DNA from: Rhodocyclaceae bacterium
GTDB lineage: Bacteria > Pseudomonadota > Gammaproteobacteria > Burkholderiales > Rhodocyclaceae
Direction: 5' to 3'
Assembly: GCA_022072095.1 (NCBI GenBank)
Contig: JAJVIJ010000048.1
Coordinates: 1 to 64,000 of the forward strand
DNA: 64,000 bases
Positions within the stretch are counted from its first letter, which is position 1. Each line of letters starts with the position of its first letter. This document shows positions 12,827-63,538 of this stretch, piece after piece. The notes beneath the pieces are model-generated. The model was given only the letters and a program-made list of their open reading frames with translations, searched no databases and was not told where the DNA came from. Made by a program: the position numbers and the translations under genes.

Positions 12827-12840
12827 GCGCCGTGCGACGC

Positions 12841-13794: not shown

Positions 13795-13870
13795 GGTCCC
13801 ACCCTGTCCTGCCCGGTTCCATCCCGCTACTTCCCATTGCCAACATTCCAACTCATCCTGTCTTCGTGCC

Positions 13871-47853: not shown

Positions 47854-47916
47854 CGCTAGCTACCTCCCTGGTCGCACGAAGGGCACCCTCGATCGACGGT
47901 CCTGCGTCCGCCCGGC

Positions 47917-49140
47917 CTATTTCTTGTTCAGAGGGCAGACGCTCTTCGAGACCGGCATATAGGCCTGATCACCCGGAATCACCTTGAGCACCTTGTAATA
48001 ATCCCATGGGTACTTCGATTCGGCCGGCGACTTCACCTGCGTCAGCAGCATGTCATGCACCATGCGGCCGTCGGCGCGCACCTTGCCGTTCTTGGCAAAG
48101 AAGTCGTTGACCGGTGTGGCCTTGATCTTCGCCATCACCGCCCCGGCTTCATCGGTACCGGCCGCCTTGATCGATTTGAGGTAGTGCAGTGTTGCCGAGT
48201 ACACACCGGCCTGAATCATCGTCGGCATGCGCTTGTGGCGCTCGAAGAAGCGCTTGCTCCATGCGCGTGTCTCATCGTTCAGATCCCAGTAGAAGCCGTC
48301 GGTTGACAACAGACCCTGGGCCGTCTTCAAACCCATCGCATGGATATCGGTGATCATGACGATCATGCTCGCCAGACGCTGTTTCGGCGAGATACCGAAC
48401 TCATTGGCCTGCTTGATCGTGGTCATCATGTCGGAGGCAGCGTTGGCGAGCCCGATGACCTTGGCGCCCGAGCTTTGCGCCTGCAACAGGTAGGTGGAGA
48501 AATCACTGCCCGGGAACGGATGCCTGACTGATCCCAACACCTTGCCGCCCGCCGCCTTGATCGCCTCGCTCGCATCCTTTTCCATCGAATGGCCGAACGC
48601 ATAATCCGGCGTGATGAAGAACCAGGTGTCACCGCCCTGCTGGGTCACGGCACGCGCCGTGCCGTTCGCCAACGCGTAGGTATCATAGGCCCAGTGTACG
48701 GTGCGGTCGGTGCAGTCCTCGTTCGTCAGGCGCGTGGTACCCCCCGACGAAACCATCGCGATCCGGTTCTTTTCCTTGGCGACCTTGACGGCAGCCAGCG
48801 CCGCCGCCGAGCCCGGCAGGTCGACGATCATGTCGACCTTGTCCTCGTCGAACCAGCGGCGCGCCATGTTCGACGCCACATCCGGCTTGTTCTGGGTGTC
48901 CCCGGCGATCACCTCGATCGGCACGCCGTTGACCTTGCCGCCAAAATCCTCGGCGGCCATCTTGGCCGCCAGGACTGACCCCTGACCAGCGAGGTCCGAG
49001 TAAATTCCGGAGAGATCGGTCTGCACGCCGATCTTGACGACGCCATCGGACATTTTTCCGGACTGCGCAATGGCCGATGGGGCAAGCCAAGCCGACGCCG
49101 CACCGGCAAGCGCCGCAGCCACCACTTTGAATTTGAACAT
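47917..49140 (-). CDS. ABC transporter substrate-binding protein (Liv type)
   Basis: Periplasmic binding protein of 407 residues with a signal peptide (MFKFKVVAAALAGAASAWLAPSAIAQ) and the type I fold: VKIGVQTDLSGIYSDLAGQGSVLAAKMAAEDFGG, AMVSSGGTTRLTNEDC and DTWFFITPDYAFGHSME. An AGGAGG lies just before the ATG at 49140. The ligand is not predictable, but this subfamily is common in catabolic operons for aromatic or related acids. Confidence 0.9.
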   Translation of the reverse strand: MFKFKVVAAALAGAASAWLAPSAIAQSGKMSDGVVKIGVQTDLSGIYSDLAGQGSVLAAKMAAEDFGGKVNGVPIEVIAGDTQNKPDVASNMARRWFDEDKVDMIVDLPGSAAALAAVKVAKEKNRIAMVSSGGTTRLTNEDCTDRTVHWAYDTYALANGTARAVTQQGGDTWFFITPDYAFGHSMEKDASEAIKAAGGKVLGSVRHPFPGSDFSTYLLQAQSSGAKVIGLANAASDMMTTIKQANEFGISPKQRLASMIVMITDIHAMGLKTAQGLLSTDGFYWDLNDETRAWSKRFFERHKRMPTMIQAGVYSATLHYLKSIKAAGTDEAGAVMAKIKATPVNDFFAKNGKVRADGRMVHDMLLTQVKSPAESKYPWDYYKVLKVIPGDQAYMPVSKSVCPLNKK

Positions 49141-49168
49141 CGACGCCTCCTCTAGACTCTGCAACACC

Positions 49169-49879
49169 TTATACGCTCAGATAGCGCTCCAGCAGGCCGG
49201 CCTTGGCCTGCAACTCGTCTGCGGCAACCGTCTCCACGACTTGGCCCTGCTCGATGACGTAGTGACGGTCGGCCAACGACTCGACGAAACGAAAATTCTG
49301 CTCGACCATGACGATGGTCAGATCGCGCGACTTCAACTTCGCGATCGCCCGTCCCAGTGTCTGGACGATCACCGGCGCCAGCCCCTCGGTGATTTCATCG
49401 AGCAGCAACAAACGCGCGCCCGTCCTGAGCACGCGCGCAAGTGCTAGCATCTGCTGCTCGCCGCCAGAGAGGCGCGTGCCCTGGCTGCGCCGCCGTGTAG
49501 CCAGATTCGGAAACATCTCGTAAATCTCGTCCAGGCTCATGCCACCGCTGCCGACCACCGGTGGCAGCAGCAGATTCTCTTCTGCGCTCAGCGACGAGAA
49601 GATGCCGCGCTCTTCGGGACAGTAACCGACGCGCAGACGAGCAACCCGATGGGCAGGAAGATGGATCGCTTCGGTTCCATTGATCATGATCGATCCGGTC
49701 CGGCGATCGGTCAGACCCATGATCGCCTTGAGCGTCGTCGTGCGACCAGCGCCGTTCCGTCCGAGCAGACTCACCAGTTCGCCACGACGCACCTCGAAGT
49801 CGATGCCATGCAGGATATGTGATTCGCCGTAGTAGGCGTGTAACCCGGCAACACGCAGATATTCTGTCGCTGCGTTCAT
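49169..49879 (-). CDS. livF: ABC transporter ATPase LivF with altered Walker A
   Basis: ATPase of 236 residues. Walker A reads GRNGAGRTTT, with Arg46 (CGC) in place of the essential Lys; the signature LSGGEQQMLALARVL, Walker B LLLLDEITEGLAP and switch His (VEQNFRF has Gln-Asn rather than His) are LivF-like. A K-to-R change in Walker A usually blocks ATP hydrolysis. With LivG it would form an asymmetric pair. It starts 37 bases after the end of livG. Confidence 0.9.
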   Translation of the reverse strand: MNAATEYLRVAGLHAYYGESHILHGIDFEVRRGELVSLLGRNGAGRTTTLKAIMGLTDRRTGSIMINGTEAIHLPAHRVARLRVGYCPEERGIFSSLSAEENLLLPPVVGSGGMSLDEIYEMFPNLATRRRSQGTRLSGGEQQMLALARVLRTGARLLLLDEITEGLAPVIVQTLGRAIAKLKSRDLTIVMVEQNFRFVESLADRHYVIEQGQVVETVAADELQAKAGLLERYLSV

Positions 49880-49916
49880 GATCCGGCTCCGGTCGCCATG
49901 CGGCGGATCGCTTTCG

Positions 49917-50669
49917 TCACGCCGCGTTCCCCATATATGCCTCCATCACCTGGGGGTTGCTCGATATCTCGGCATAACTGCCCTCGGCAAGCACCGATCC
50001 GTGTTGCAGGACGGTAATCCTGTCGGAGAGGTTCGCGACCAGACTCAGGTTGTGTTCCACCATCAACACCGTGCGCTGCTGGGCGACACGCCGGATGAGC
50101 TCGGTCACACGGCCAACATCCTCGTGTCCCATACCCGAGGTCGGTTCATCGAGCAACAGCAATTCCGGATCCACGGCCAGCGTCGTCGCCAGTTCGAGCG
50201 CGCGCTTGCGACCATAGGGCAACTCCACCGTCACGACATCGGCGAAGGAGCGCAGATCGACCTCGTCGAGCAAGGCCATCACCCGATCATTGAGCCCATC
50301 CAGGCTGCGCTCGGACCGCCAGAAATGAAACGACTTGCCACTGGCGCGCTGGAGGGCGACACGGACATTGTCGCGCACACTCAGATGCGGGAACACGGCG
50401 GAAATCTGGAACGAGCGCACGAGCCCCATGCGCGCCACCTGCGCGGGTCGTCTCCAGGTGATGTCCTGGCCCCGGTAGACAATCGCGCCCCGTGTCGGCT
50501 CGAGAAACTTGGTCAACAAGTTGAACACGGTCGTCTTGCCGGCGCCATTCGGTCCGATCAGGGCATGGATACTGCCTCGCCGGACCTTCAGATCGACACC
50601 CGCTACCGCCGTAAACCCCTTGAATTCCTTGACCAGGCCGCGCGTTTCCAGAATATATTCCATGTTCAT
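49917..50669 (-). CDS. livG: ABC transporter ATPase LivG
   Basis: ATPase of 250 residues with intact Walker A (GPNGAGKTTVFNLLTKF), signature region ELPYGRKRALELATTLA (LivG-type), Walker B ELLLLDEPTSGMG and switch EHNLSLVANLSDRI. The start is ATG at 50669 or the next Met (50663). It pairs with LivF, whose Walker A Lys is replaced. Confidence 0.92.
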   Translation of the reverse strand: MNMEYILETRGLVKEFKGFTAVAGVDLKVRRGSIHALIGPNGAGKTTVFNLLTKFLEPTRGAIVYRGQDITWRRPAQVARMGLVRSFQISAVFPHLSVRDNVRVALQRASGKSFHFWRSERSLDGLNDRVMALLDEVDLRSFADVVTVELPYGRKRALELATTLAVDPELLLLDEPTSGMGHEDVGRVTELIRRVAQQRTVLMVEHNLSLVANLSDRITVLQHGSVLAEGSYAEISSNPQVMEAYMGNAA

Positions 50670-50784
50670 CGTGCGCGGCTGTCTCCAACCTGGTTGTCGT
50701 TATCGAGGGCAACATCCGTTCAGCATAATATTCCGGGACCCTGCCGATGCGGATGATAATTCAACATCGCCGATTCGTGTCAAA

Positions 50785-51738
50785 TCAGTCTGCGCGCAGG
50801 CCGGCTGCCTTGATGATCTGCGACCATTTGTCCGTTTCGGTGCGCACGAAAGTGGCGAGATCAGCGGGGCTGCCGCTGGCGGGATCGAAGCCGATGCTCG
50901 CCATACGCGTGCGAACCTCCGCAGTCTGCACGACCCTGTTGACCTCGGCATTCAGGCGCTGGACGATTTCCGGCGGCGTACCGCGGGGCGCGAACAGCGC
51001 GTTCCACCCGACCACCTCGTAGGACAAGCCCGATTCCTGCACGGTCGGCACATCCGGCGCGAGCTGGGTGCGTTTGCTGCTGGTGACGGCAATGGCCTTG
51101 ATTTTGCCCGCCTTCACATGCGGCAGGACCGTTGCCACCGTCTCGGCCGCGTACTGGATCTGGCCGCCCATCAGATCGGTGAGCACCGCCGTCGCCCCCC
51201 GGTATGACACCGGCACGACGTCGACGCCCGCGTTGCGCTTGAACAGCTCGATCGCAACCCGGCCGCTGGTGCTGCCGAAGCCGAAGTTGAGCCCGCCCGG
51301 CCGAGCTCTGGCCAAATCCACCAGTTCCTTCGGACTCGATGCCGGTGCCGACGGGTGCGCCACGATCATCAGCGGCAACGTACCGACCAGCGCTACCGGG
51401 GCGAAATCGCGTATGTGGTCGAACGGCACGCTCGAATACAGGCTTGCGTTCATGGCATGCGTCGCGTTGGTGCCCATGATGAGCGTGTAACCGTCCGCCG
51501 CAGCGCGCGCCGCGACCTCGGTGCCGATGTTGCCGCCCGCACCCGGACGGTTGTCGACCACCACCGGCTTACCCAGCGCCTCCGCCAGCTTGTCGCCAAT
51601 CGCGCGCGCCATCACATCGGTGCCCTGCCCCGCCGGATAGGGCACGACGAGCCGAATCGGCTTGCTCGGATAGGTATCGGCCAGCACCAGTGAGCTGACC
51701 ACAAGCAAGCAAGCTCCAAACCAGTGAATCGCTTTCAT
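50785..51738 (-). CDS. Bug/TctC-type extracytoplasmic solute receptor
   Basis: Periplasmic receptor of 317 residues: signal peptide (FGACLLVVSSLVLA), DTYPSKPIRLVVPYPAGQGTDVMARAI, VVVDNRPGAGGNIGTEVAARAAADGYTL, and YRGATAVLTDLMGGQIQYAAE, all typical of Bug receptors abundant in Betaproteobacteria. There is no TctA/TctB membrane partner next to it; many Bug genes are orphaned this way. AGGAGGAGGG precedes the ATG. Confidence 0.92.
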   Translation of the reverse strand: MKAIHWFGACLLVVSSLVLADTYPSKPIRLVVPYPAGQGTDVMARAIGDKLAEALGKPVVVDNRPGAGGNIGTEVAARAAADGYTLIMGTNATHAMNASLYSSVPFDHIRDFAPVALVGTLPLMIVAHPSAPASSPKELVDLARARPGGLNFGFGSTSGRVAIELFKRNAGVDVVPVSYRGATAVLTDLMGGQIQYAAETVATVLPHVKAGKIKAIAVTSSKRTQLAPDVPTVQESGLSYEVVGWNALFAPRGTPPEIVQRLNAEVNRVVQTAEVRTRMASIGFDPASGSPADLATFVRTETDKWSQIIKAAGLRAD

Positions 51739-51849
51739 GTTCCCTCCTCCTGAGGATGATTCGAGCCAGCCGTCCGTGCATGACTTATTGAATGGATGTC
51801 TGTCTACAACACGGACGGTGTGAATGGGCAGGAAAACGCCCCGAACCGC

Positions 51850-52974
51850 TTACTTGGGTTTGCGCGGCAATATCGCTTCGGCCTGGCCCTCGCAGGACAG
51901 TTCACCATCCTGATTTTCCGCGCGCAGTGCCACCACGACGTGACCCGCGCCGTCGCGCTCGAACAAATCGGTGACGCGACCGGTGATCGTCAGCAAATCG
52001 CCTTCCGGATTGTGGCGGCGGATGTTCGCCTTGAGCCGGTACAGCCAACCGTCATCGCCGATCCAGTTGGTCATGATATGGCTCATCCACGATATGCGCT
52101 CCGGGCCGTAATCGTAAGGTGCCGGTGCACCGACACGGGTCGCGAGCGCCTCCTCCCAGTGAACGCGCTCGGGCACGTCGGGGATATTGCGGTCATTACG
52201 GATCGCCGATGCCGGCGCGGACTTGAACAGTTTGTACGCGAGCTTGTGGGCGCGAATGAAGATTCCACCCCAGCCCTGCACGAAAGAGATGAAACCGGTG
52301 ATGGTCATCGGGCCCTTCAGGATGGAGGGTAGCTCCTGTCCGAGACGCACATCCTCCCAGTACAGGGTGTCCCTGCCGCGTACGTATTCGTTGTTGTAGG
52401 CCTCGGTGATGCGGTCGATTTCGGCGTCGGTGTACACCTTGGCAGACTTGAAGTGCTTGTATTTGGTGCCTTTCTCGCGGGCCGTGTCGCGCTCGGTGCG
52501 GAATGCCCATTGCTCGCATTCGGCAACCTTGTCGCCATGTTGATTGAAAAAGTCGTAGTGCAGGATCTGCTGGATCGAGCGTCCGGAAAAGCGGGTTTCG
52601 CGCTCGACCAGCTCCTTGAGATAGGTTTCGTTGCGGATGGTGTCGCCGGCACGCATCGGCTTGTGCCAGGTCCAGTCACTACCGGCGTACATGGCATGGA
52701 TACCGGGTAAGCCCTGGAATGCATTCATCGGCGACATGGCGTACAGGATCGACGGCGGCGCGATGGAGCCGCCGTAACGCGTGCCACCACCATACTCGGG
52801 ATCGTTCCACAGGGGGTTGTCATCTCCGATCCCATGTGCGTAATGACGGATGGCGTCCTGATTGCATTCGGTCAGCCAGACCACGGGGCGGGCTATGCGC
52901 TGACCAATCTTGCTGCGCAACTCGGCAAGTGCAGCTTCGGTGATGACGGGAAATCGTTCGTCGTTTGCAGCCAT
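51850..52974 (-). CDS. MaoC-like double-hotdog acyl-CoA hydratase/dehydratase
   Basis: Protein of 374 residues with two hotdog segments: an N-terminal one (LTECNQDAIRHYAHGIGDDNPLW, GGSIAPPSILY, WTWHKPMRAGDTI) and a C-terminal one (YDYGPERISWMSHIMTNWIGDDGWLYRLKANIRR, LLTITGRVTDLFERDG). Related to MaoC/(R)-specific enoyl-CoA hydratases and FAS1-like dehydratase domains. Likely hydrates an unsaturated acyl-CoA in the pathway of this cluster. It ends the group with the two CoA-transferases, 9 bases after the second. Confidence 0.78.
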   Translation of the reverse strand: MAANDERFPVITEAALAELRSKIGQRIARPVVWLTECNQDAIRHYAHGIGDDNPLWNDPEYGGGTRYGGSIAPPSILYAMSPMNAFQGLPGIHAMYAGSDWTWHKPMRAGDTIRNETYLKELVERETRFSGRSIQQILHYDFFNQHGDKVAECEQWAFRTERDTAREKGTKYKHFKSAKVYTDAEIDRITEAYNNEYVRGRDTLYWEDVRLGQELPSILKGPMTITGFISFVQGWGGIFIRAHKLAYKLFKSAPASAIRNDRNIPDVPERVHWEEALATRVGAPAPYDYGPERISWMSHIMTNWIGDDGWLYRLKANIRRHNPEGDLLTITGRVTDLFERDGAGHVVVALRAENQDGELSCEGQAEAILPRKPK

Positions 52975-52983
52975 GATGGTTCC

Positions 52984-54246
52984 TCAGTAAATGACCTTCT
53001 CTTCGCGCAGACGCTCGATGCTTTGTGCGTCCAGACCCAGTATCTGCCCATAGACATAGGCATCGTGCGCACCCAGCTCGGGAGATGAGGCCGACAACGT
53101 CAGGTCGGTAGCGATCATCCGCCAAGGCAGGCGATACAACAGCTCCTCACCCATGATCGGGTGGGAAACGGCTTGGCGCACACCACGCGCCGCATAGTGC
53201 GCATCATCGAATTGCTCCTCGACGCTCAGCACCGGCGTCGCCGGCACGCCTAGCGGAACGAGCTCGGCCAACACCGATTCCCGACTCCGGCCCGCCGTCC
53301 ACTCGGCAAGCCGCGCCTCGATCTCGCCACGCGCCGACATACGGCCGGCTTGGCCAGCGAGATCGGCGCGATGCGCCCAGTCGCCCTTGCCGATGGCCAT
53401 GCACAGCGCTGGCCATTGCCCGTCGTCCTCGATACTGATCGCGACCCACGAATCGTCGCCGGCGCAAGGGAATATGCCGTGCGGGCAATGGCGTCTGTGG
53501 CCATTACCGGCAGGCTGCGGCGCCTGGCCAGAAAACTGGAAGTCGAGCATGGCTTCGGCGAGCGGTGCCGCACCGACCTCCATTTGCGACAGATCGATAT
53601 ATTGACCCTGCCCGGTCTGCTCGCGATGCCAGAGCGCGACCAGCAGCGCAAACAACGCATGAACGCCGGAGCTGGAATCGTTCAAGCCGAAATTCATCAT
53701 GCCGTTCGGCGCCTCGTTCTCATATCCGATCAGCGCCTCGAGGCCGCAATAGGCCGATATCACCGGCGCGTAGCCGCGCAAGTCCGCGATCGGGCCAAAC
53801 TGGCCGGCTGTAGACAGCGAAATCATGATCAGCTCGCCATGCTCGCGCGCCAGCGCCATGTAGTCGAGCCCGAGTGCGGCGAGCGTGCCGGGCGTAAAGT
53901 TTTCCAACACCACGTCACTCTTCGCGGCCAGTTGGCGGAACAGGTCGGCGCCGCGTTCATCACGGATGTTCAGCCGCACTGAAAGCTTGTGCCGGTTCAA
54001 ATTGTGAAACAGTGGCACCAGTTCGATCGACTTGCCCGGAATGCGCAGCTTCTTGCCATCGACGATCGGCGCACCGCGCAAGCGGGAGTTGTCCAGCCGC
54101 TCACTGTGTTCGATCTTGATCACTTCCGCGCCGAGATCGGCCAGGAACGCAGCCGCCATCGGGCCAGCCCAAACCCAACCCAGGTCGAGCACCCGAACTC
54201 CGGAAAGCGGCTTCGAATGCGCTTCGGGGGCTTGCGACATGCTCAT
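52984..54246 (-). CDS. Family III CoA-transferase (CaiB/BaiF), second copy
   Basis: Enzyme of 420 residues; DLGWVWAGPMAAAFLADLGAEVIKIE is the N-terminal CoA-binding motif and LNDSSSGVHALFALLVAL contains the likely catalytic Asp. Its ATG at 54246 overlaps the stop of the upstream transferase (ATGA), so it is coupled and may form a hetero-oligomer with it. Substrate unknown; it would move CoA from a donor thioester onto a carboxylic acid. Confidence 0.87.
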   Translation of the reverse strand: MSMSQAPEAHSKPLSGVRVLDLGWVWAGPMAAAFLADLGAEVIKIEHSERLDNSRLRGAPIVDGKKLRIPGKSIELVPLFHNLNRHKLSVRLNIRDERGADLFRQLAAKSDVVLENFTPGTLAALGLDYMALAREHGELIMISLSTAGQFGPIADLRGYAPVISAYCGLEALIGYENEAPNGMMNFGLNDSSSGVHALFALLVALWHREQTGQGQYIDLSQMEVGAAPLAEAMLDFQFSGQAPQPAGNGHRRHCPHGIFPCAGDDSWVAISIEDDGQWPALCMAIGKGDWAHRADLAGQAGRMSARGEIEARLAEWTAGRSRESVLAELVPLGVPATPVLSVEEQFDDAHYAARGVRQAVSHPIMGEELLYRLPWRMIATDLTLSASSPELGAHDAYVYGQILGLDAQSIERLREEKVIY

Positions 54247-55406
54247 TGCGAGGCTCCCAATTCCTCCCTTACCGCGACCGTGTGCTGGCCCAGAGATGGC
54301 GGCGACGCAAACGCACGCTGCGGTATGGCCGAGTAGCGAAAAGGCAGGCGCGGCAGTTTGACGCAACCGATACCCGGCAAATCCACGTCGACGAAGAATC
54401 CGCGCGCGGCGAAATGCGCATCATCCAGCGCATCGCCGACCTGCCGCACCGGCGCACAGGGAAACTCCCATTTGCGCGCCATCGCGAAGAGTTCGGTCTG
54501 CGTGTAGCGCGCCAGCTCGCCGATCACCAGTGCATCCACCTCGTCCGGGTAATCGTGACCCATGGCGATCTGATCGCGGTAACGTGGGTTGTCACCCCAT
54601 GCCGGCGATCCGACGGCCTTCAGAAATTGATCCCAGTCGCGCGGCGTGCGCGCGATCAGCACGACCAGGCCATCCTTGCACGGAAATATTCCGCAGGGAT
54701 AAGGCCCCATCGAGCCGGCAGCTCGCCGGCCTTCGCGCCGCCACGGCAGTCCGTAATTGATGAACAGTGTCGCCCCGATACCGGCGTAGGCGGCAAGAAT
54801 GTCCGCCATGGCGATGTCGATGAACTGGCCAACCCCGCTCCGGCGTCGGGACAACAGTGCTGCGAGGATGGCAGCCGCGGCATGAACACCAGCCTGAAAA
54901 TCGGTCTGCGCAAGCGGCAGGGACAAGGGGGGACGGCCGGGCGCGCCGATCGCCCAGGCCACCCCCGACAAGGCCGCGGCGTGCAGACTACCGCCAGACC
55001 GGTCGGCATAGGGGCCGGTGCGGCCAAAAGTACTGAGCACACAGTACACCAGCCGCGGGTTGAGCGTGCGCAGCGTCTCCTCGTCCGCACCGATATCGAG
55101 CAGCGCGCGCCGGGGCCGATCGCTGATCCAGACATCTGCCCGGCGGGCCGCACAGGCAAGAAACGAACGCGATCCGGTATCTCGCGGATCCACAACCACG
55201 GACTCCTTGCCGGCATTGAGGAACGCAAACAATCCGGAGGACTCCAGGCCAGCCTTGCCGGGCGGATACGGGCCGTGACGCCGCGCGATGTCACCTTCGG
55301 GCGGTTCGATCTTGATGACGCGAGCACCGAGGTCGGCAAGCAGGCGCGCGCAATAGGGCACGGCGACGAAGCCGCCCTGCTCGACGACCGTCAGTCCAGA
55401 CAGCAT
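54243..55406 (-). CDS. Family III CoA-transferase (CaiB/BaiF), first copy
   Basis: Enzyme of 387 residues with VVEQGGFVAVPYCARLLADLGARVIKIEPPEGDIAR and the catalytic Asp region LAQTDFQAGVHAAAAILAALLSR. Followed by a second family III member with which it overlaps by 4 bases. Two adjacent non-identical copies suggest a heteromeric transferase, as in benzylsuccinate CoA-transferase BbsEF; this is an analogy, not an identification. Confidence 0.88.
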   Translation of the reverse strand: MLSGLTVVEQGGFVAVPYCARLLADLGARVIKIEPPEGDIARRHGPYPPGKAGLESSGLFAFLNAGKESVVVDPRDTGSRSFLACAARRADVWISDRPRRALLDIGADEETLRTLNPRLVYCVLSTFGRTGPYADRSGGSLHAAALSGVAWAIGAPGRPPLSLPLAQTDFQAGVHAAAAILAALLSRRRSGVGQFIDIAMADILAAYAGIGATLFINYGLPWRREGRRAAGSMGPYPCGIFPCKDGLVVLIARTPRDWDQFLKAVGSPAWGDNPRYRDQIAMGHDYPDEVDALVIGELARYTQTELFAMARKWEFPCAPVRQVGDALDDAHFAARGFFVDVDLPGIGCVKLPRLPFRYSAIPQRAFASPPSLGQHTVAVREELGASQ

Positions 55407-55407
55407 T

Positions 55408-57012
55408 TCAGGCGCCGGCCCGCGTCGCTGCTTCGCGATCGCGCAACACCTTGCGGTTGATCTTGCCCGCAGGTGTTTTCGGCAGCTCGGTCACGTACTC
55501 GATATGTCGTGGGTATTCATGCTGGGACAACTGCGTCTTCAGAAACTGCTGGATCTCCGCGACGGTCGAACCGCCCGACTCACGCCGCACCAGAAACGCC
55601 TTCGGAACCTGACCGCGCACCGCATCCGGCACGCCGATCACGGCGGCCTCGAGTATGTCGGGATGGCGGAGCAGCGCATTCTCGATCTCGACCGCACTCA
55701 TCGTCCACCCGGCCGAGATGATGACGTCGTCGGAACGGCCCTCGTGGTAGAAATAGCCGTCGCCATCGCGCCGTCCACGATCCTTGACAAAGAACCAGCC
55801 ATCCTTGCGCGCCAGCGCGATCTCGCCGGTTTCACCAGCGGGCAGGATGCGGCCGTCCCGGTCCACGATGTCGACCCGCTGCCCCGGAGCAGCCTGGCCC
55901 AGCGCACCCCGGCGGACCTTGTGGTCCGGATAACCGGGAAAATTGACGATGAGCACGCCGACCTCGGTGCTGCCATACATGCTCGCCGGCGCGACACCGA
56001 AGGTTCTCTCGACCCAGTCGAACGTCGCGTCGTCCATCGGTTCGCCGGTAAACGAGATCTTTTTCAGGTCGATCCGGTATCGATCCGCCATCCCGGCGTT
56101 ACGCAGCATCCGGAACACGGTCGGCGCTGCGGCGAAATTGTCGACCTGAAAATTCTGCAGTGCCTCGAAAATGCGCTGCGCCTCGAACCTGCCCGAATAT
56201 GCGCCGATATGAATGCCTAAAACCAGCGGCGAAATGGTCCCGTGCCATAGCCCATGCCCCCATGCCGGGGACGACGGACAGAAGTAGCGGTCGCCGGGCT
56301 TGAGTCCGACCCCATAGAGCGCCGCAATCATCACCGTGACCGCCGAACGGTGGGTATGCTTGACCGCATCGGGGAGCTCGCGCGTGGTACCGGACGTGTA
56401 TTGAAAGATCGCCAGATCGTTGGCCGCGGTAGTCGGCACATAGTCCGACGACATCGCCGCCAGTTCATTCCAGAACGCCCCGTCGGCGCGGACGACCGGC
56501 AAGTCCGGAAACCGCTCCCTGACCAAACCTTCCTGGTCCAGCGTCACGATCAGGCTGGGCCGGCAATCCTCGATGCGCAACGCCAAGCCTTCGGGGCCGA
56601 ACAATGTAAACAGGGGTACCGCGATGGCACCGCGCTTCACCGCGCCGAACAGTGCCGTGTAGAACGCCCTGCCCGGTTCGAGCATCACCGCAACGCGCTC
56701 ACCGGGACCGACGCCGCGCTGCTCCAGCCAGTTCGCGAAGCGGCTGCTCGAATCGGACAGTTCGGCGAACGAGTAATGCTCGGCGTGGCCATCGGCAAAC
56801 TGCACGCTGACCGCCTGGCCGCGCTCGCGGTGCCTGTCCAGACACTCGTGCGCGAGATTCATGCGCTCGCGGTCACCGTCGAACAGTTGCCACAAGGAAT
56901 CCCAGGAAAACTTCGATCTCGCTTCCTGGGCCGTCGTGATCGCGAGTATCGGCGCATCGAGGCCACGCCCGGCCGGTCGCTGTCTATCCTGCATGTCTCC
57001 ATCCCCCGTCAT
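55408..57012 (-). CDS. AMP-forming acyl-CoA ligase
   Basis: Adenylate-forming enzyme of 534 residues. Core A3 motif is YTSGTTRELPDAVKHTH (residues 205-221), in which the usual PKG of the phosphate loop is PDA; A5 is YGSTEVG; A8 region is GRSDDVIISAGWTMSAVEIE; the C-terminal catalytic Lys is in LPKTPAGKINRK. Related to acetyl/propionyl- and medium-chain acyl-CoA synthetases. Likely activates the cluster's substrate acid. The start is ATG at 57012 or, with a better ribosome binding site, 56994. Confidence 0.88.
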   Translation of the reverse strand: MTGDGDMQDRQRPAGRGLDAPILAITTAQEARSKFSWDSLWQLFDGDRERMNLAHECLDRHRERGQAVSVQFADGHAEHYSFAELSDSSSRFANWLEQRGVGPGERVAVMLEPGRAFYTALFGAVKRGAIAVPLFTLFGPEGLALRIEDCRPSLIVTLDQEGLVRERFPDLPVVRADGAFWNELAAMSSDYVPTTAANDLAIFQYTSGTTRELPDAVKHTHRSAVTVMIAALYGVGLKPGDRYFCPSSPAWGHGLWHGTISPLVLGIHIGAYSGRFEAQRIFEALQNFQVDNFAAAPTVFRMLRNAGMADRYRIDLKKISFTGEPMDDATFDWVERTFGVAPASMYGSTEVGVLIVNFPGYPDHKVRRGALGQAAPGQRVDIVDRDGRILPAGETGEIALARKDGWFFVKDRGRRDGDGYFYHEGRSDDVIISAGWTMSAVEIENALLRHPDILEAAVIGVPDAVRGQVPKAFLVRRESGGSTVAEIQQFLKTQLSQHEYPRHIEYVTELPKTPAGKINRKVLRDREAATRAGA

Positions 57013-57166
57013 TCACTCCAAGATTAGTGATGGACACGCTCGGATGACAGCTTGCAGCGCTGTGTGCGCCGCAACAAGTTTTACATAGTGAAATTGTGTT
57101 TGGCGGTCAAAACCTGCCATGGTCGCGGCGGGCGACGTTACGCTCGCGAAACGGATTACACGCGGG

Positions 57167-58027
57167 CTAGCGCGCCGCAGCCGAAATCCCGCTGGGCCGG
57201 TCTCCGGCCAAGGTAATGCGATGCATGACTCTGCGGAAGCCGTGGTAATCATTCACCGGGTTGTGCTGCGCGCAGCGGTTGTCCCAGAACGCAATGGAGC
57301 CGACGCGCCAGGAAAAACGGCAGGTCAACTCGGGCCGGATCTGGTGCGCATAAAGATACTCCAGCAGTGGCCGACTCTCCTCTTCGGTCATGTCGCGAAA
57401 ACGTACCGTGTGCGCGACGTTGACGTAGAGTGCTTTCCGCCCCGTTTCCGGATGGACGCGCACGGCCGGATGTTCGGCAAGATACTCCTCGCGCACATCG
57501 TCCCGTGCCGAATCCTGCATTCGATCCTCGCGCGTCTTGGTGGTATCGGCCTTGGCCGAGCTATAGACCGCGTGCAGACCATCGAGCAGCCGTTGCAGTC
57601 CCGGCGACAGCGTTTCGTAGGCCAGATATTGATTCGCGAACAAGGTATCGCCACCATAAGGAGGAACTTCGCGCGCCAGCAGCGTGGTCGCCATCGGCGG
57701 CTTGTCCTGGTAGGTGGTGTCGGCATGCCAGATGCCGCCGAAATTCACGCGTTCATGCTCCAGTTTCTTGATCTCGATGATTTTCGGGTAGCCCTCGAGA
57801 CCGCGCACGAACGGGTACTCGACCGGTTCGCCAAACTGCTGCGCGAACGCCATGTATGCCGGCAGATCCAGCGGCTGATCCCTGAAGAACAGCACCAGAT
57901 GGTCCAGCCAGGCGCGCCGGATTTCGTCGGTCACCTCGGCGGACAAGGGTCGCGCAAGATCGACGCCATGAACCTCGGCGCCGAGCGCCCCAGCGATACG
58001 GCGCACTTCGATGTGTCGGTAAGCCAT
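57167..58027 (-). CDS. TauD/TfdA-family 2-oxoglutarate dioxygenase
   Basis: Fe(II)/2-oxoglutarate oxygenase of 286 residues. Fe ligands: His and Asp in GGIWHADTTYQDKP and the distal His in WDNRCAQHNPVNDYHG; the 2OG Arg is in GFRRVMHRITLAGDRP. Start is the ATG at 58027 after AGAGGGGGA. Substrates of the family range from taurine to aryloxyacetates; here the neighbours point to an initial hydroxylation of an acid. It is divergent from the HMGS-like gene, 232 bases away. Confidence 0.9.
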   Translation of the reverse strand: MAYRHIEVRRIAGALGAEVHGVDLARPLSAEVTDEIRRAWLDHLVLFFRDQPLDLPAYMAFAQQFGEPVEYPFVRGLEGYPKIIEIKKLEHERVNFGGIWHADTTYQDKPPMATTLLAREVPPYGGDTLFANQYLAYETLSPGLQRLLDGLHAVYSSAKADTTKTREDRMQDSARDDVREEYLAEHPAVRVHPETGRKALYVNVAHTVRFRDMTEEESRPLLEYLYAHQIRPELTCRFSWRVGSIAFWDNRCAQHNPVNDYHGFRRVMHRITLAGDRPSGISAAAR

Positions 58028-58259
58028 GTCCCCCTCTTTCGTATTCGATTGCAACATCGATCTGAAATTCGGCCACGAATGGGCCAGACTGACGCTGACA
58101 TGTTACCCGGACTGGCCGACCCGAAAAGTTGATCTCGATCATGGCAACTCGCGTCCCGCCGTCCAGTCAGTGGCGTTGGCATCGCCGAAGCGCTAGCATC
58201 CGCAGCGGGACCACACCCGGAGCCGGACTGGAAGTGCCCGGCGCAACAGGAGGAGAACG

Positions 58260-59723
58260 ATGCTAGGCATTACATCTTTTGGTGCGTATATCCCCAGGTT
58301 ACGTTTGGTGCGTGCGGTCGGCGCCCAGGCGAATGCCTGGTTCAATAGCGCGGTGCTCGCGCAGTCCCGTGGCGAACGCGCCATGGCCAACTGGGACGAA
58401 GACACGCTGACCATGGCCGTCGAAGCCGCGCGTGACGCGCTTTCCGGGCGCGCGCGCGACGACATCGGCGCCGTATTCTTCGGCTCGACGACACACCCCT
58501 TCGCCGATCGGCAGAATGCCGGCCTGCTCGCCGGCGCGCTCGATCTGCCCGAGGCAATCGTCGCCAGCGATCTGGCCGGCTCCCAAAAAGCCGGCACGGG
58601 CACGCTGCTCGCCGCGCTGAACCATGCCGCGGCCGGCCACCGGGGCGAATCGCTGGCGGTCGCCGGCGAGCATCGCCGGGCGCGCGCAGGCAGCGTCCAG
58701 GAATTGCTGTACGGAGATGCGGCGGCCGCTTTTTCGATCGGCCGCGATCAAGTCATCGCCGAATTTCTCGGCAGCCATTCGACCTCGGTCGACTTCGTCG
58801 ATCATTACCGGCGTGCCGACAGTGACTTTGAATACCACTGGGAGGAACGCTGGATACGCGACGAAGGCTATATGAAGCTCGTGCCGGCGAGCATCGCAGC
58901 CGCACTCGCCAAGTTGGAAATCGATGGTGCGAGTGTGGATCATTTCATCCTGCCGGAAAACACCGCGAAATTGGCCGCCGCCGTGGCCAAACGCTGCGGC
59001 ATAGCGGAGTCATCGGCGCGCGACGGCCTGTTGGGCAATGTCGGTCTTACTGGTGCCGCACACCCATTGTTGTTGCTTGCGCATGCGCTCGAAGATGCCC
59101 GGCCGGGGCAGACTCTCATCGTCGTCGGCTTCGGCCAAGGCTGCGATGTGCTCGCTTTCCGCACCACCGAGGCACTGGACAGGCTGGCTCGGCGCCATGC
59201 CGTGAGCGGCAGCCTCGCGCGCCGGAAGGAAGAGAGGAACTATCAGAAATTCATGGCATTCAACGAAGTGCTCGTGATGGAGAAGGGCTTGCGTGCCGAA
59301 TCGAACCCTCAGACCGCGCTGACGACCCAGTATCGGCATCGGCGCATGCTGCTCGGTCTGGTCGGCGGGCGCTGCACGCAGTGCGGCACCCCGCAGCTGC
59401 CGCCGGCCGATGTCTGCGTCAATCCGGCGTGTCAGCACACCGGGCCGATGTCGCCCTATCGATTCGCGGATGAGCCGGCACGGATCAAGACCTGGTCTGC
59501 CGACAATCTGACCTTTACCCCCGATCCGCCAGCCCATTACGGCATGGTCGAGTTTGAACGTGGCGGACGCTTCATGGCCGACATCACCGACTACGACGTC
59601 GGCGCGGTGAGCGTCGGACAGGCCGTACGCATGGTGTTCAGGGTGCGTGGCCGCGACCCGGTCAGGGGGATCACCCGTTACTTCTGGAAGGCAGCGCCCG
59701 TCTACGGCGCGAAGGAGGCTTGA
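58260..59723 (+). CDS. HMG-CoA-synthase-like/DUF35 fusion without catalytic residues
   Basis: Protein of 487 residues. Residues 1-310 follow HMG-CoA synthase (FGAYIPRLRL, DEDTLTMAVEAARDAL, AGTGTLLAAL, GNVGLTGAAHPLL, VVGFGQGCDVLAF), but the catalytic Glu, Cys and His positions read Thr77 (GSTTHP), Gln109 (GSQKAGT) and no His (DHFILPEN, 227-234). Residues about 355-487 are a DUF35 zinc/OB domain with C372, C375, C386, C391. In archaea separate thiolase, DUF35 and HMGS proteins form a complex; here two are fused and the thiolase is the next gene. Confidence 0.85.
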   Translation: MLGITSFGAYIPRLRLVRAVGAQANAWFNSAVLAQSRGERAMANWDEDTLTMAVEAARDALSGRARDDIGAVFFGSTTHPFADRQNAGLLAGALDLPEAIVASDLAGSQKAGTGTLLAALNHAAAGHRGESLAVAGEHRRARAGSVQELLYGDAAAAFSIGRDQVIAEFLGSHSTSVDFVDHYRRADSDFEYHWEERWIRDEGYMKLVPASIAAALAKLEIDGASVDHFILPENTAKLAAAVAKRCGIAESSARDGLLGNVGLTGAAHPLLLLAHALEDARPGQTLIVVGFGQGCDVLAFRTTEALDRLARRHAVSGSLARRKEERNYQKFMAFNEVLVMEKGLRAESNPQTALTTQYRHRRMLLGLVGGRCTQCGTPQLPPADVCVNPACQHTGPMSPYRFADEPARIKTWSADNLTFTPDPPAHYGMVEFERGGRFMADITDYDVGAVSVGQAVRMVFRVRGRDPVRGITRYFWKAAPVYGAKEA

Positions 59724-59725
59724 TC

Positions 59726-60931
59726 ATGGCGAGTGGCATCAAGGACAAGGTGGTCATTCTGGGCATGGGTTGCACACGCTTCGGCGAACGCTGGGACGCC
59801 GGGGCGGAAGAGCTGATGGTCGAGGCATTCGACGAGGCGCTCGGCGACGCCGGCATAGGCCGGAAGGAAATTGGCGCGGCCTGGCTCGGCTCCTGCATGG
59901 ATGAAGTCAATATCGGCAAGTCGGCGCTGCCGGCGTCGATTGCGCTGCGTCTCGACAACATTCCGGTGACCCGCGTCGAAAACTATTGCGCCACCGGGAC
60001 CGAGGCATTCCGCGGTGCGGTTTATGCGGTGGCCGCCGGCGCTTGCGACATCGCCCTCGCGATCGGTGTCGAGAAGCTCAAGGACACCGGCTATGGCGGA
60101 CTTCCCGGTCTCGACATCGGCACCATGCCACCCTTGTGGTGGCCGAACCTGTCGGCGCCCGGCGTCTTCGCCCAGGTCGCCTCGGCCTACATGAAGAAAT
60201 TCAATGTCTCACGCGACGAACTCAAGCGCGCGCTCGCCGAAATCTCGGCGAAGAGCCATGTGAATGGTGCAAAGAACCCGAAGGCGCATCTGCAGAAGGC
60301 CGTTTCCTGCGACGCCATCCTAGCGGCGCCGATGATCGCCGAGCCGCTCGGCCTGTTCGACTGTTGCGGGGTGTCGGACGGGGCTGCCTGCGCGATCGTC
60401 ACGACACCGGAGATCGCGCAGTCGCTGGGCAAGAAGGCGGACGAGCTGGTGGCCATCAAGGCGTTGCAGCTTTCGTTGTCGAACGGTGCGGAAGGCGGCT
60501 ACAACGCCTGGGACGGGGCCTACATCCCGACAACGCGCAAGGCGTCCTCCCGTGCCTACGCCGAAGCCGGCATACGCGATCCGCGCAAGGAATTGAGCAT
60601 GATCGAGGTGCATGACTGCTTTTCGATCACCGAGCTTGTGACCATGGAAGATCTCGGCATCTCCGCCGAAGGCGGGGCCATCCGCGACATCATGGATGGC
60701 TTCTACAACGCCGACGGCAAAATCCCCTGCCAGATTGACGGCGGGCTCAAGTGTTTTGGCCACCCCATCGGCGCCTCGGGGATCCGCATGGTGTACGAGA
60801 TGTACCTGCAGCTGAGTGGTCGGGCCGGCGCCCGGCAGCTGCCGGCCCCAGTTTATGGGCTGACACACAATCTCGGCGGATTTCCCCACCAGAACGTCGT
60901 CGGCATCTCCGTCGTCGGCCGCTATCGCTGA
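59726..60931 (+). CDS. SCP2-type thiolase/acyl-CoA acetyltransferase
   Basis: Thiolase of 401 residues with active-site Cys in VENYCATGTEAFRG, His in IEVHDCFSITELVTMEDLG and GGLKCFGHPIGASG, and the SCP-x-like end LTHNLGGFPHQNVVGISVVG. GAAGGAGG precedes the ATG at 59726, which is 3 bases after the stop of the HMGS-like/DUF35 gene. Close coupling suggests one complex, comparable to thiolase-DUF35 pairs such as BbsAB in anaerobic toluene degradation or Ltp2-ChsH2 in steroid side-chain breakdown. Confidence 0.88.
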   Translation: MASGIKDKVVILGMGCTRFGERWDAGAEELMVEAFDEALGDAGIGRKEIGAAWLGSCMDEVNIGKSALPASIALRLDNIPVTRVENYCATGTEAFRGAVYAVAAGACDIALAIGVEKLKDTGYGGLPGLDIGTMPPLWWPNLSAPGVFAQVASAYMKKFNVSRDELKRALAEISAKSHVNGAKNPKAHLQKAVSCDAILAAPMIAEPLGLFDCCGVSDGAACAIVTTPEIAQSLGKKADELVAIKALQLSLSNGAEGGYNAWDGAYIPTTRKASSRAYAEAGIRDPRKELSMIEVHDCFSITELVTMEDLGISAEGGAIRDIMDGFYNADGKIPCQIDGGLKCFGHPIGASGIRMVYEMYLQLSGRAGARQLPAPVYGLTHNLGGFPHQNVVGISVVGRYR

Positions 60932-61084
60932 CCCGCGTACGCCGCGATCGGCGGCACTCCGCTTCGGGCTTGGGTAGCCTCGCGCAGGCTGCTCAGCCTT
61001 GACACAGCGAGCGAAGACTGAAAGACTTTGTCAGGACAAATGCGCGCCCGACAAGGGCGACTACACGAGGAGAGGGGCGTAATC

Positions 61085-62266
61085 ATGACCATGTTTCAAC
61101 TGGACCCGGAAATCGAATCGTTCCGGGCAGACGTACGCAAATTTGCCGAAAAGGCCTTCAAGGAAAAGGCCGCGTACTGGGATGAGGAGGAATTGTTTCC
61201 CACCGAAAACCGCAACCTGCTTGCCGAGCTGGGCTATCTCGGGCTCGTGATCCCCGAGCAGTACGGGGGCTCCGGTGCATCGGTCATCCAGGGTACGGTG
61301 TTTCTCGAAGAGATTGCGCGCGTGTGTTTCAACACCGGGTTGGTGTGTCAGTTGGCACTCAATGGCCCGTCACGAGCCATCACCATTCTGGGCACGGACG
61401 AGCAGAAGAAGCGCTGGCTGCCGAAAACGGTCAGCGGCGAGTACATGTTCGGCATCGGCATCAGCGAGCCGCACGCCGGCTCGGGCATGACCGACATGAC
61501 GACGACGGCGCTGCCCGATGGCGATCACTATGTGCTCAAGGGCGAGAAAGCCTATTGCACGGGTGGCCATCTGGCCACGCATATTCTGGTGTTCGCGCGC
61601 TTCGCGAAGGATACCGAAGGTCCGCGCGGCATCGGCGCCCTGATCATCGAAAAGGATACCCCCGGGTTCACGGTGAGCAAGCCTGCTCGCAAGATGGGCG
61701 GCCGTGGCATGCCAGAGGTCGAGCTGTTTTTCGACAACTGTCGCGTACCAAAGGAAAACGTGCTGGTTCCGGGCGACCCGAACAGCACGAAGAGTTTCAA
61801 GATCCTGATGAGTTCGTTCGGTCCCGAACGTGTGGGCAACGCCGCCATGTGCCTGGGTGTCGCGCAAGCTGCGTACGAGAAGGCCATGTCCTACTCTCAG
61901 GAACGGCATCAGTTCGGCCGCCCGATCTGCGAATTTCAGGGCATCCAGTGGAAGATAGCCGACATGGCGGTGCAGATCCACGCCGCCCGCATGATGATTT
62001 ACCGCGCGGCGACCAATCTGAAGAATGGCTTCCCGGACCCGCTGGATGCCGCGATTGCGAAGTTGTATGCGAACGAGATGGTCCAGCGTGTCGCCAACGA
62101 AGGCTTGCAGATCCATGGGCACCTGGGCTTTACCCGCGACTGCCCGATGGAGCGCATGGTGCGCGACTCCCGCGGCTTTGCGCTGGGCGGTGGCACGACG
62201 GAAATCCTGCGCAACACCATTTCGTCGATGGTGCTCGGTCGTAGCTTCGATCAGCGCCGGGGCTGA
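61085..62266 (+). CDS. Acyl-CoA dehydrogenase 1
   Basis: FAD-dependent dehydrogenase of 393 residues; GIGISEPHAGSGMTDMTTTA and YCTGGHLATHILVFAR are the FAD/substrate segments, ERHQFGRPICEFQGIQWKIADMAVQIHAARM is the helical core, and the C-terminus has GLQIHGHLGFTRDCPMERMVRDSR. The usual Glu at the C-terminal xEGT site is Gly (ALGGGTTEILR), so the base may come from elsewhere, as in isovaleryl-type enzymes. GAGGAGAGGGG precedes the ATG at 61085. Confidence 0.92.
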   Translation: MTMFQLDPEIESFRADVRKFAEKAFKEKAAYWDEEELFPTENRNLLAELGYLGLVIPEQYGGSGASVIQGTVFLEEIARVCFNTGLVCQLALNGPSRAITILGTDEQKKRWLPKTVSGEYMFGIGISEPHAGSGMTDMTTTALPDGDHYVLKGEKAYCTGGHLATHILVFARFAKDTEGPRGIGALIIEKDTPGFTVSKPARKMGGRGMPEVELFFDNCRVPKENVLVPGDPNSTKSFKILMSSFGPERVGNAAMCLGVAQAAYEKAMSYSQERHQFGRPICEFQGIQWKIADMAVQIHAARMMIYRAATNLKNGFPDPLDAAIAKLYANEMVQRVANEGLQIHGHLGFTRDCPMERMVRDSRGFALGGGTTEILRNTISSMVLGRSFDQRRG

Positions 62267-62386: not shown

Positions 62387-63538
62387 ATGGATTTCGAATT
62401 CAGCGAAGAACAGCGCATTCTGCGTGAAAGCGTGCGCAAGATGCTCGATCGAGTCGCGCCCGCGGAATACGTGCGGCGCGCCGATGTCGAGGGGCGTTAC
62501 CCGGAAGAGCTTTATCAGGCATTCATCGATCAGGGACTGCTGCGCATGCCCTTCCCGGAGCAATATGGAGGGTTGGGTGGCGGCATCATGGATTTCGTCG
62601 TCATCGCCGAAGAACTCGGCCGAAAAAGCTACGATTTCCTCGGCGCCTATGGCACCTGTGTGTTCAATGGCCTGAATATCGCCCACAACGCCAGCGAGCA
62701 TCAGAAGCAATATTGGTTGCCGAAGCTGCTGTCCGGCGAGATCCGCATGTCGATTTCGATGACCGAGCCGAACGCCGGCTCCGATGCGGGTGCGATGCGC
62801 ACCGTTGCACGCAGGGAAGGCGACGAATGGGTCATCAATGGCCAGAAAGTGTTCTCGACCGGCGCCGGCATCAAGAACAACGTCATCAATCTGTACGCCA
62901 AGACCGATACCGGGGTGCCGTTCCAGAAAGGGACCTCGCTGTTTCTGGTGGACAACACCACACCGGGCGTGCGTCTGCGCAAACTCGATACGCTGGGACG
63001 GCGCGCGCTCGGCACCTACGAAGTTTTCTTCGACAACGTCCGCATTCCGGCCGACCGGATCGTGGGCGAGCCCAACAAGGGTTGGGATTACATGCTCTCC
63101 GGCCTGCAACTCGAGCGCATCATGACCACCGCCGGTTATGCCGGAGCTGCCCAGGACGCGCTCGACCAGGCACTCGCGTACGCCAAGGAGCGCCAGCAGT
63201 TCGGCCGACCGATCGGCACGTTTCAGACCATTGCCCATACGCTCGCGGACCTGCAGACCGAGGTCGATGCTGCCCGACTGTTGATGCTGCGCGCAGCCTG
63301 GCAGCTCGCGCAAGGCCAGGACGCACTGATGGCCATTTCGCAGGCCAAGCTGTTTGGCTCGGAAACCTACGTCAAGGTCGCAAACCAGGGCATGCAGATC
63401 ATGGGCGGTTATGGATACATCATGGAATTCGACATGCAGCGGCATTTTCGCGACGCTCGCGTCACCACCATCACGGCGGGAACCTCGCAGATGCAACGCA
63501 ATCTGATCGCCGGCCGCCTCGGCCTGAAGACCAAGTAA
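62387..63538 (+). CDS. Acyl-CoA dehydrogenase 2
   Basis: Enzyme of 383 residues with MSISMTEPNAGSDAGAMRTVARREGDEWVINGQKVFSTGAG (FAD/substrate region), ERQQFGRPIGTFQTIAHTLADLQTEVDAARLLML and MQIMGGYGYIMEFDMQRHFRDAR. The C-terminal catalytic place reads TITAGTSQMQRN, with Ala instead of Glu. It is 120 bases after the first dehydrogenase and 13 bases before the alcohol dehydrogenase; the two ACADs may form a heteromeric enzyme or act at different steps. Confidence 0.92.
   Translation: MDFEFSEEQRILRESVRKMLDRVAPAEYVRRADVEGRYPEELYQAFIDQGLLRMPFPEQYGGLGGGIMDFVVIAEELGRKSYDFLGAYGTCVFNGLNIAHNASEHQKQYWLPKLLSGEIRMSISMTEPNAGSDAGAMRTVARREGDEWVINGQKVFSTGAGIKNNVINLYAKTDTGVPFQKGTSLFLVDNTTPGVRLRKLDTLGRRALGTYEVFFDNVRIPADRIVGEPNKGWDYMLSGLQLERIMTTAGYAGAAQDALDQALAYAKERQQFGRPIGTFQTIAHTLADLQTEVDAARLLMLRAAWQLAQGQDALMAISQAKLFGSETYVKVANQGMQIMGGYGYIMEFDMQRHFRDARVTTITAGTSQMQRNLIAGRLGLKTK

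Follow-up and report, generated by a model that had tools for sequence, protein, structure and literature searches.

A fused HMG-CoA synthase-like/DUF35 protein as a likely non-catalytic subunit of its neighbouring thiolase

Results

Gene layout and domains of the fusion protein

The stretch of DNA analysed here (the window) comprises 64,000 nucleotides from a Rhodocyclaceae bacterium (contig JAJVIJ010000048.1) and contains a gene whose product joins a domain resembling 3-hydroxy-3-methylglutaryl-coenzyme A (HMG-CoA) synthase, abbreviated HMGS, to a DUF35 domain. This gene is followed immediately by a thiolase gene. The features of the two genes, with the evidence for each, were as follows.

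58260..59723, + strand: HMGS-like/DUF35 fusion, 487 amino acids (open reading frame (ORF), Pfam, NCBIfam, sequence matches in the Protein Data Bank (PDB), AlphaFold2 model)
58260..59198, + strand: HMGS-like domain, approximately residues 1-313, boundary approximate (5m3k_A and 6esq_I alignments, structural match)
58488..58490, + strand: T77, where archaeal HMGS has its catalytic Glu (alignment, codon checked)
58584..58586, + strand: Q109, at the catalytic Cys position (alignment, codon checked)
58839..58853, + strand: W194-E-E-R-W198 loop (conservation in relatives, codons)
58953..58955, + strand: P232, at the catalytic His position (alignment, codon checked)
59199..59324, + strand: linker, approximately residues 314-355 (domain alignments, model confidence, identity)
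59325..59705, + strand: DUF35 domain, residues 356-482, with zinc ribbon (C372, C375, C386, C391) and oligonucleotide-binding (OB) fold (Pfam, 6esq_E, codons)
59711..59718, + strand: putative ribosome-binding site of the thiolase, AAGGAGG-type, within the 3' terminal codons of the fusion (sequence)
59726..60931, + strand: thiolase of family PRK06157 (NF004810), 401 amino acids, with C88, H296, C298 and H346 (NCBIfam score, alignment, codons)

The stop codon of the fusion gene (TGA, 59721-59723) is separated from the thiolase start codon (ATG, 59726) by 2 bases, which corrects the distance of three bases given in a preliminary description of this locus. A longer thiolase starting at TTG 59720, as called by the ORF finder, is unlikely since the PRK06157 model aligned from model position 1 at 59726.

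Three Pfam models scored above their cut-offs on the fusion protein: zf-ChsH2 (23.8 bits, cut-off 23.2), OB_ChsH2_C (36.3, cut-off 27.1) and ACP_syn_III_C (33.9, cut-off 26.6). Among solved structures the sequence matches were, best first, PhlA (1.7e-33), Chromobacterium PhlA, the archaeal HMGS 6esq_I and MucA. The archaeal HMGS aligned with residues 2-333 (1.6e-28) and 5m3k_A with residues 2-313, and the archaeal DUF35 partner 6esq_E aligned with residues 356-481 (3.1e-9). The AlphaFold2 model, built from 53 sequences, had a mean predicted local distance difference test score (pLDDT) of 90.4 and a predicted template modelling score (pTM) of 0.92; confidence was lowest in the linker (residues 341-350, mean pLDDT 57), and over the linker region (residues 311-355) the mean pairwise identity was 0.552. 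The best structural match of the model was 6esq_I (Z 46.0, root-mean-square deviation 1.8 over 334 residues), which places the domain in the fold of archaeal-type HMGS, followed by PhlA (5mg5_A: Z 44.4, deviation 2.5, 346 residues; PhlA entries Z 44-45) and MucA (Z about 41.5). The protein stayed below the cut-offs of both archaeal HMGS family models (TIGR00748, 139.6 bits versus 353.35; NF003274, 187.9 versus 244). The DUF35 part passed both of its Pfam cut-offs and has all four zinc-ribbon cysteines, as had been described.

The catalytic residues of HMGS are replaced

When the fusion protein was aligned with archaeal HMGS, the catalytic Glu, Cys and His corresponded to T77, Q109 and P232, and the earlier claim that all three are replaced was thereby borne out. 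The same positions were examined in 80 relatives (the best 80 of 194 confirmed loci), where the Glu position was occupied by Thr in 77, Ser in 2 and Asn in 1, the Cys position by Gln in 67, Leu in 12 and Met in 1, and the His position by Pro in 72, Ala in 7 and Ser in 1. In a set of 100 fused proteins (the window protein, the 80 relatives, 17 from plasmids and 2 more; L137 is gapped at the Cys column) the catalytic Glu was present in none, the Cys in none and the His in 3 (L100, L140 and L142). Catalytic residues supplied from shifted positions, which the preliminary description had named as a finding that would overturn it, were searched for within three positions in 81 sequences (the 80 relatives and the window protein): Glu or Asp was found in 0/81, Cys in 2/81 and His in 0/81. 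One group of fused proteins stands apart, namely the divergent pair copies at C10 of genome G191 (L100, L164) and L140, which have Arg at the Cys position, retain the His and form their own branch.

In FabH (3-ketoacyl-acyl carrier protein synthase III, KAS III) the Glu column is occupied by Thr, and the Cys and His are retained. Since Thr is also found there in FabH, Glu may, judging from the sequences, never have been present in the fusion lineage, and Cys and His may then have been lost.

The catalytically inert HMGS-like domain is under purifying selection: the ratio of nonsynonymous to synonymous substitution rates (dN/dS) was 0.05-0.24 in 10/10 close pairs, with corresponding values of 0.03-0.32 for DUF35 and 0.02-0.15 for the thiolase. 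W194, E195, R197 and W198 were each present in 80/80 relatives and H268 in 79/80, and in a wider alignment of bacterial fusions W194 was found in 38/40 rows, E195 in 39/40 and R197 in 40/40. W194 and E195 are absent from active HMGS and from PhlA. From its position in the alignment, this WE-x-RW loop would lie over the former active site.

Conservation of this degree is more than a scaffold needs, and could mean that the HMGS-like domain catalyses some other reaction, as a thioesterase, a second thiolase or a decarboxylase of the KSQ type, in which Cys is replaced by Gln; the Gln at the Cys position in 67/80 relatives would agree with the last. His and Asn have roles in KSQ and FabH. The Cys position is Leu or Met in the 13 other relatives, the His is absent in 97/100 proteins and the window protein has Leu where FabH has its Asn; with the Cys, His and Asn columns all changed, neither the KAS III nor the KSQ triad is left, and a KSQ-like decarboxylase was rejected on these grounds. 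The authors of a study on Novosphingobium tardaugens have, in the accessible text, proposed "other activities (e.g., thiolase)" for the gene EGO55_13555, a putative homologue of the fusion (PMC7793797). Taken together, we consider another chemistry of the domain unlikely.

The neighbouring thiolase has an intact active site

The PRK06157 model scored 666.1 bits on the thiolase, against a cut-off of 403, and BbsB matched it at 2.5e-38. By alignment C88, H296, C298 and H346 correspond to the catalytic residues of the archaeal thiolase 6esq_A, and the protein has the nucleophilic Cys, the HDCF motif and the GHP His of SCP2/archaeal-type thiolases. These four residues were invariant in 47/47 aligned proteobacterial partners and in 16/16 plasmid partners (the seventeenth, L147, was left out as a partial ORF). 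The AlphaFold2 model of the thiolase had a pLDDT of 82.9. The enzyme beside the fusion thus looks active, as first proposed.

A thiolase fold bound to a DUF35 domain is also found in the aldolases Ltp2 and Sal (PMC12329534, accessible part), and the partner could accordingly be a retro-aldolase rather than a thiolase. Sal uses Tyr302 and Cys304, and Ltp2 a pair of Tyr residues, according to the same source, whereas the protein in the window retains the full thiolase set, and an aldolase therefore seems very unlikely.

Fusion and thiolase occur together

Two genome sets were searched, 398 genomes of the phylum and 41 of relatives, which share 6 genomes and give 433 distinct ones. The full-length fusion was found in 10/398 phylum genomes, which span 9 families, and a PRK06157 thiolase above the cut-off was found in the same 10; none of the other 388 had one of the two without the other. 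One of these genomes (G191) has two fusions and two thiolases. The thiolase scores in the positive genomes were 642-724 bits and the next thiolase scored 288.8, which leaves a wide gap between the two groups. Under independence, the chance of this agreement would be 4e-20, a figure to be read with the reservation that the genomes are not fully independent. Among the 41 relatives both genes occurred in the same 4 genomes, where the lowest thiolase score was 422.7 and the next, from a genome without the fusion, 291.2. Combined, both genes were found in 13/433 genomes and one alone in none.

The fusion search matched 17 phylum genomes, of which 7 had only partial matches (42-75 bits) and were not counted. 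Two of these (G204 and G027) correspond by coordinates to HMGS genes (L105 and L107) that keep Glu, Cys and His, and a third (G339) carries the unfused arrangement described below. The HMGS model gave matches in 132/249 genomes, 0 of them above the cut-off, and most were taken for FabH frames.

The genes are also linked. In 64 of the 80 relatives the thiolase started at most 165 bases downstream of the fusion, in 9 it lay 1.5-6.6 kb downstream on the same strand, and 3 fusions were at a contig end. All 17 plasmid loci fetched, from 44 plasmid records, had the thiolase adjoining the fusion, after it in the bacterial loci and before it in the four haloarchaeal ones. In one of them (L147, from a plasmid of Paraburkholderia sp. 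PGU19) the partial ORF matches thiolase residues 2-288 only, owing to a frameshift or a sequencing error. Pairwise distances of fusions and thiolases were correlated over 47 loci (r 0.80), the maximum in 2000 permutations being 0.21. The coupling of the fusion to a thiolase that had been noted in the window is widespread.

The loss of every catalytic residue could also suggest a decaying HMGS that is held by its operon position alone. The low dN/dS in all ten pairs argues against this, and a thiolase was present in every searched genome with the fusion, even where the two are unlinked. In G147 they lie on different contigs and away from the contig ends (the only other thiolase matched there is under the cut-off), so that operon hitch-hiking fails to explain this genome; in G285 the two genes again fall on separate contigs, here near contig ends, and may still be linked. 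We regard a mere bystander as extremely improbable.

Distribution and relationship to PhlA and MucA

Records in which the fusion was found bear the names of Alpha-, Beta-, Gamma- and Deltaproteobacteria and of SAR324, and more distant, plasmid-borne fusions came from Rhodococcus, Mycobacterium, Streptomyces, Sphingobium, Novosphingobium and haloarchaea. Bacterial fusions formed one starred clade in the tree (98/92) and PhlA with MucA another (98/95), outside which the window fusion falls, with HMGS as a third (96/87). The haloarchaeal fusions take no firm place in it: the fused forms require 2 changes on this tree, and a single clade of all fusions was not rejected by the approximately unbiased (AU) test (p = 0.417).

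An unfused arrangement was seen in genome G339 of the same phylum (L093, 326-2906, and L160), which has a thiolase with the same set of C88, H296, C298 and H346, an HMGS-like protein of 315 amino acids with Thr and Ala at the first two catalytic positions (read by eye) and a separate DUF35 gene. This is a split form of the same set.

PhlA is the nearest solved sequence to the fusion and is likewise HMGS-like without Cys and Glu, and the unit could thus be an acyltransferase like PhlACB or MucABC, which forms carbon-carbon or other acyl bonds in biosynthesis. The separate clades speak against this, with the reservation that a single clade of all inert forms was not rejected either (AU test, p = 0.231). 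Furthermore, PhlC has Tyr298 in its active site (accessible text of the PhlACB study), where the thiolase in the window has C298 of HDCF at what is presumably the equivalent position, and many of the neighbours in annotated plasmid loci are beta-oxidation genes. A biosynthetic acyltransferase is consequently judged quite unlikely.

Genomic surroundings

Downstream of the thiolase are two further genes, which are probable pathway partners of the fusion and the thiolase.

61040..62266, + strand: acyl-CoA dehydrogenase, start uncertain (Pfam)
62387..63538, + strand: second acyl-CoA dehydrogenase (Pfam)

A divergent catabolic block at 46045-58057 (- strand) encodes a branched-chain-type ATP-binding cassette (ABC) transporter, a TctC receptor, a MaoC-like protein, two class III CoA-transferases, an AMP ligase and a TauD dioxygenase. 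A conserved pathway context was considered and rejected, as the neighbours other than the thiolase vary between loci (for 55 and 36 neighbour proteins, as judged from family counts): none of the 14 other window ORFs that were compared had a relative of at least 45% identity in more than 2 of the 80 loci, the first acyl-CoA dehydrogenase had none in the other 80 loci and the context of the second was not conserved. In annotated plasmid loci many neighbours belong to acyl-CoA metabolism. The loci of the nearest relatives (L004-L007, from Polycyclovorans, Nevskia and Solimonas) contain a further thiolase-like gene, which in L004 is directly downstream (12706-13881), and L004 and L005 have a wax-ester synthase gene upstream. 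Three coding-looking ORFs of the window, at 43201-44145 (+), 24659-26479 (-) and 20977-22206 (-), had no Pfam match at 1e-5.

Discussion

Although databases give it the name HMG-CoA synthase, the fusion probably is not one. The comparative evidence that it works as a unit with the thiolase is strong. Given the replacement of the catalytic residues across the family, the purifying selection on the inert domain, the intact thiolase and the co-occurrence of the two genes, we think it likely that the fusion is an obligatory non-catalytic subunit of the neighbouring catabolic thiolase, with a probable role in the breakdown of unusual acids. The two proteins would form a complex like the archaeal thiolase/HMGS/DUF35 complex and PhlACB, in which DUF35 would connect a dimer of the thiolase with one of the HMGS-like domain. 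The latter would no longer be catalytic; the cavity that once took up its substrate may, together with the WE-x-RW loop, form the opposite wall of the thiolase reaction chamber and help to hold CoA or a bulky acyl chain. Cleavage of a 3-oxoacyl-CoA with CoA by the thiolase would be the final step of side-chain or ring beta-oxidation, and catabolism of a carboxylic acid would agree with the CoA-transferases, ligase, dioxygenase and acyl-CoA dehydrogenases encoded nearby.

Several observations weigh against the role of the fusion as a thiolase subunit. The 13 genomes with both genes cannot be counted as independent, the two genes may be inherited together because they serve one pathway and not because their products touch, and 4/80 relatives had no thiolase in the available 1.2-5.3 kb downstream. 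In 47/81 sequences a Cys stands no more than three residues from the position of the lost His, directly after it in the sequences listed, and could conceivably have taken on a new catalytic role in that part of the family; in the window this place, directly after P232, is occupied by Glu. Eight of the 80 relatives (L067, L070, L072, L075 and L077-L080) retain the first zinc Cys only (CTSD or CTSN), so that the zinc ribbon is dispensable in some members, whose DUF35 domain probably works without zinc. Finally, the CoA-binding residues of the archaeal complex are absent from PhlACB (PMC6392133, accessible text).

If the fusion is a thiolase subunit, proteins that databases now list as HMG-CoA synthase, KAS III or OB-fold protein, and that are found in steroid and aromatic degradation clusters, need to be renamed, and the thiolases of this family need co-expression with the fusion for activity, comparable to PhlC and the whole PhlACB operon. 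More tentatively, and with considerably less confidence, we suggest that many catabolic thiolases of bacteria and haloarchaea, a large class under mostly wrong names, are two-subunit enzymes with an inert HMGS fused to DUF35 as the second subunit, whose WE-x-RW loop would reach into the thiolase site and select the bulky 3-oxoacyl-CoA to be cleaved, including ring-opened estrogen intermediates of edc clusters. The family may have branched off before HMGS chemistry arose, which is conceivable because the residue corresponding to the HMGS Glu is Thr in KAS III.

Comparison with known systems

The preliminary description regarded the arrangement as lacking a characterised counterpart. This does not hold in its broad form, given that PhlACB of Pseudomonas and Chromobacterium (5m3k, 5mg5, 9skh) already pairs a thiolase-fold enzyme with an inert HMGS-like subunit. 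According to the accessible text of PMC6392133, PhlA lacks the HMGS Cys and Glu, PhlB is the DUF35 protein and acyl transfer is carried out by residues of PhlC only; the assembly is Phl(A2C2)2B4, in which PhlB bridges the dimers and a cavity is common to all three subunits, and activity was obtained only upon expression of the whole operon. The window fusion resembles PhlA in that both Cys and Glu are missing, and the partner is in both cases a thiolase-fold protein with an active Cys. PhlACB differs in having three unfused genes, a separate clade, Cys, Gly and Gln at the three HMGS positions, and a CoA-independent acyl transfer with Tyr298 of PhlC in the active site.

The archaeal acetoacetyl-CoA thiolase/HMGS/DUF35 complex (6esq, 6et9), as described in other papers and PDB titles, shares all three components and the catalytic residues of the thiolase, and differs in that its HMGS is active, its genes are three and its function is biosynthetic. 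MucABC of Streptococcus macacae (9vbo) combines an HMGS-like subunit without Glu, Cys and His with a thiolase-like subunit, and is distant (22-23% identity) and in another clade than the fusion. The benzoylsuccinyl-CoA thiolase BbsAB (7pxp) also pairs a thiolase with a DUF35 partner, and is not known to contain an HMGS-like domain. In ChsH2-Ltp2 and Shy-Sal, which act on steroid side chains, a DUF35 domain on a hydratase domain binds a thiolase-fold enzyme, and the DUF35-carrying hydratase domain of ChsH2 lacks catalytic residues (accessible parts of the sources); the domain is there MaoC-like and not HMGS-like, and the enzyme an aldolase and not a thiolase. The present proposal would add a further case to that of ChsH2, in which an inert enzyme domain is likewise carried on DUF35.

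Closest in context is the edc cluster for estradiol degradation in N. tardaugens, in which the thiolase gene EGO55_13550 lies beside EGO55_13555, annotated as "HMG-CoA synthase", which its authors were unable to link to any step (PMC7793797). On a plasmid of Novosphingobium ES2-1 (L133) the gene order is the same as in the accessible description of edc: P450, an OB-fold protein at the ChsH2-like place, lipid-transfer protein, hydratases, thiolase, fusion, short-chain dehydrogenase/reductase (SDR) and acyl-CoA dehydrogenase. The L133 fusion lacks all three HMGS residues and is 33% identical to the window protein. The shared gene order suggests that EGO55_13555 is a fusion of the L133 type, which would provide a testable role for a gene of the estradiol cluster left without a step by its authors.

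In the literature searched, outside which most subscription journals lie, we found no characterised case of a fused HMGS-like/DUF35 protein with a degradative thiolase, and nothing on PRK06157 or on a thiolase/OB-fold/HMGS fusion. The broad idea of an inert partner is known, and what is new here is the fused form, with its association with a degradative thiolase, the clade that it forms and the conserved WE-x-RW loop.

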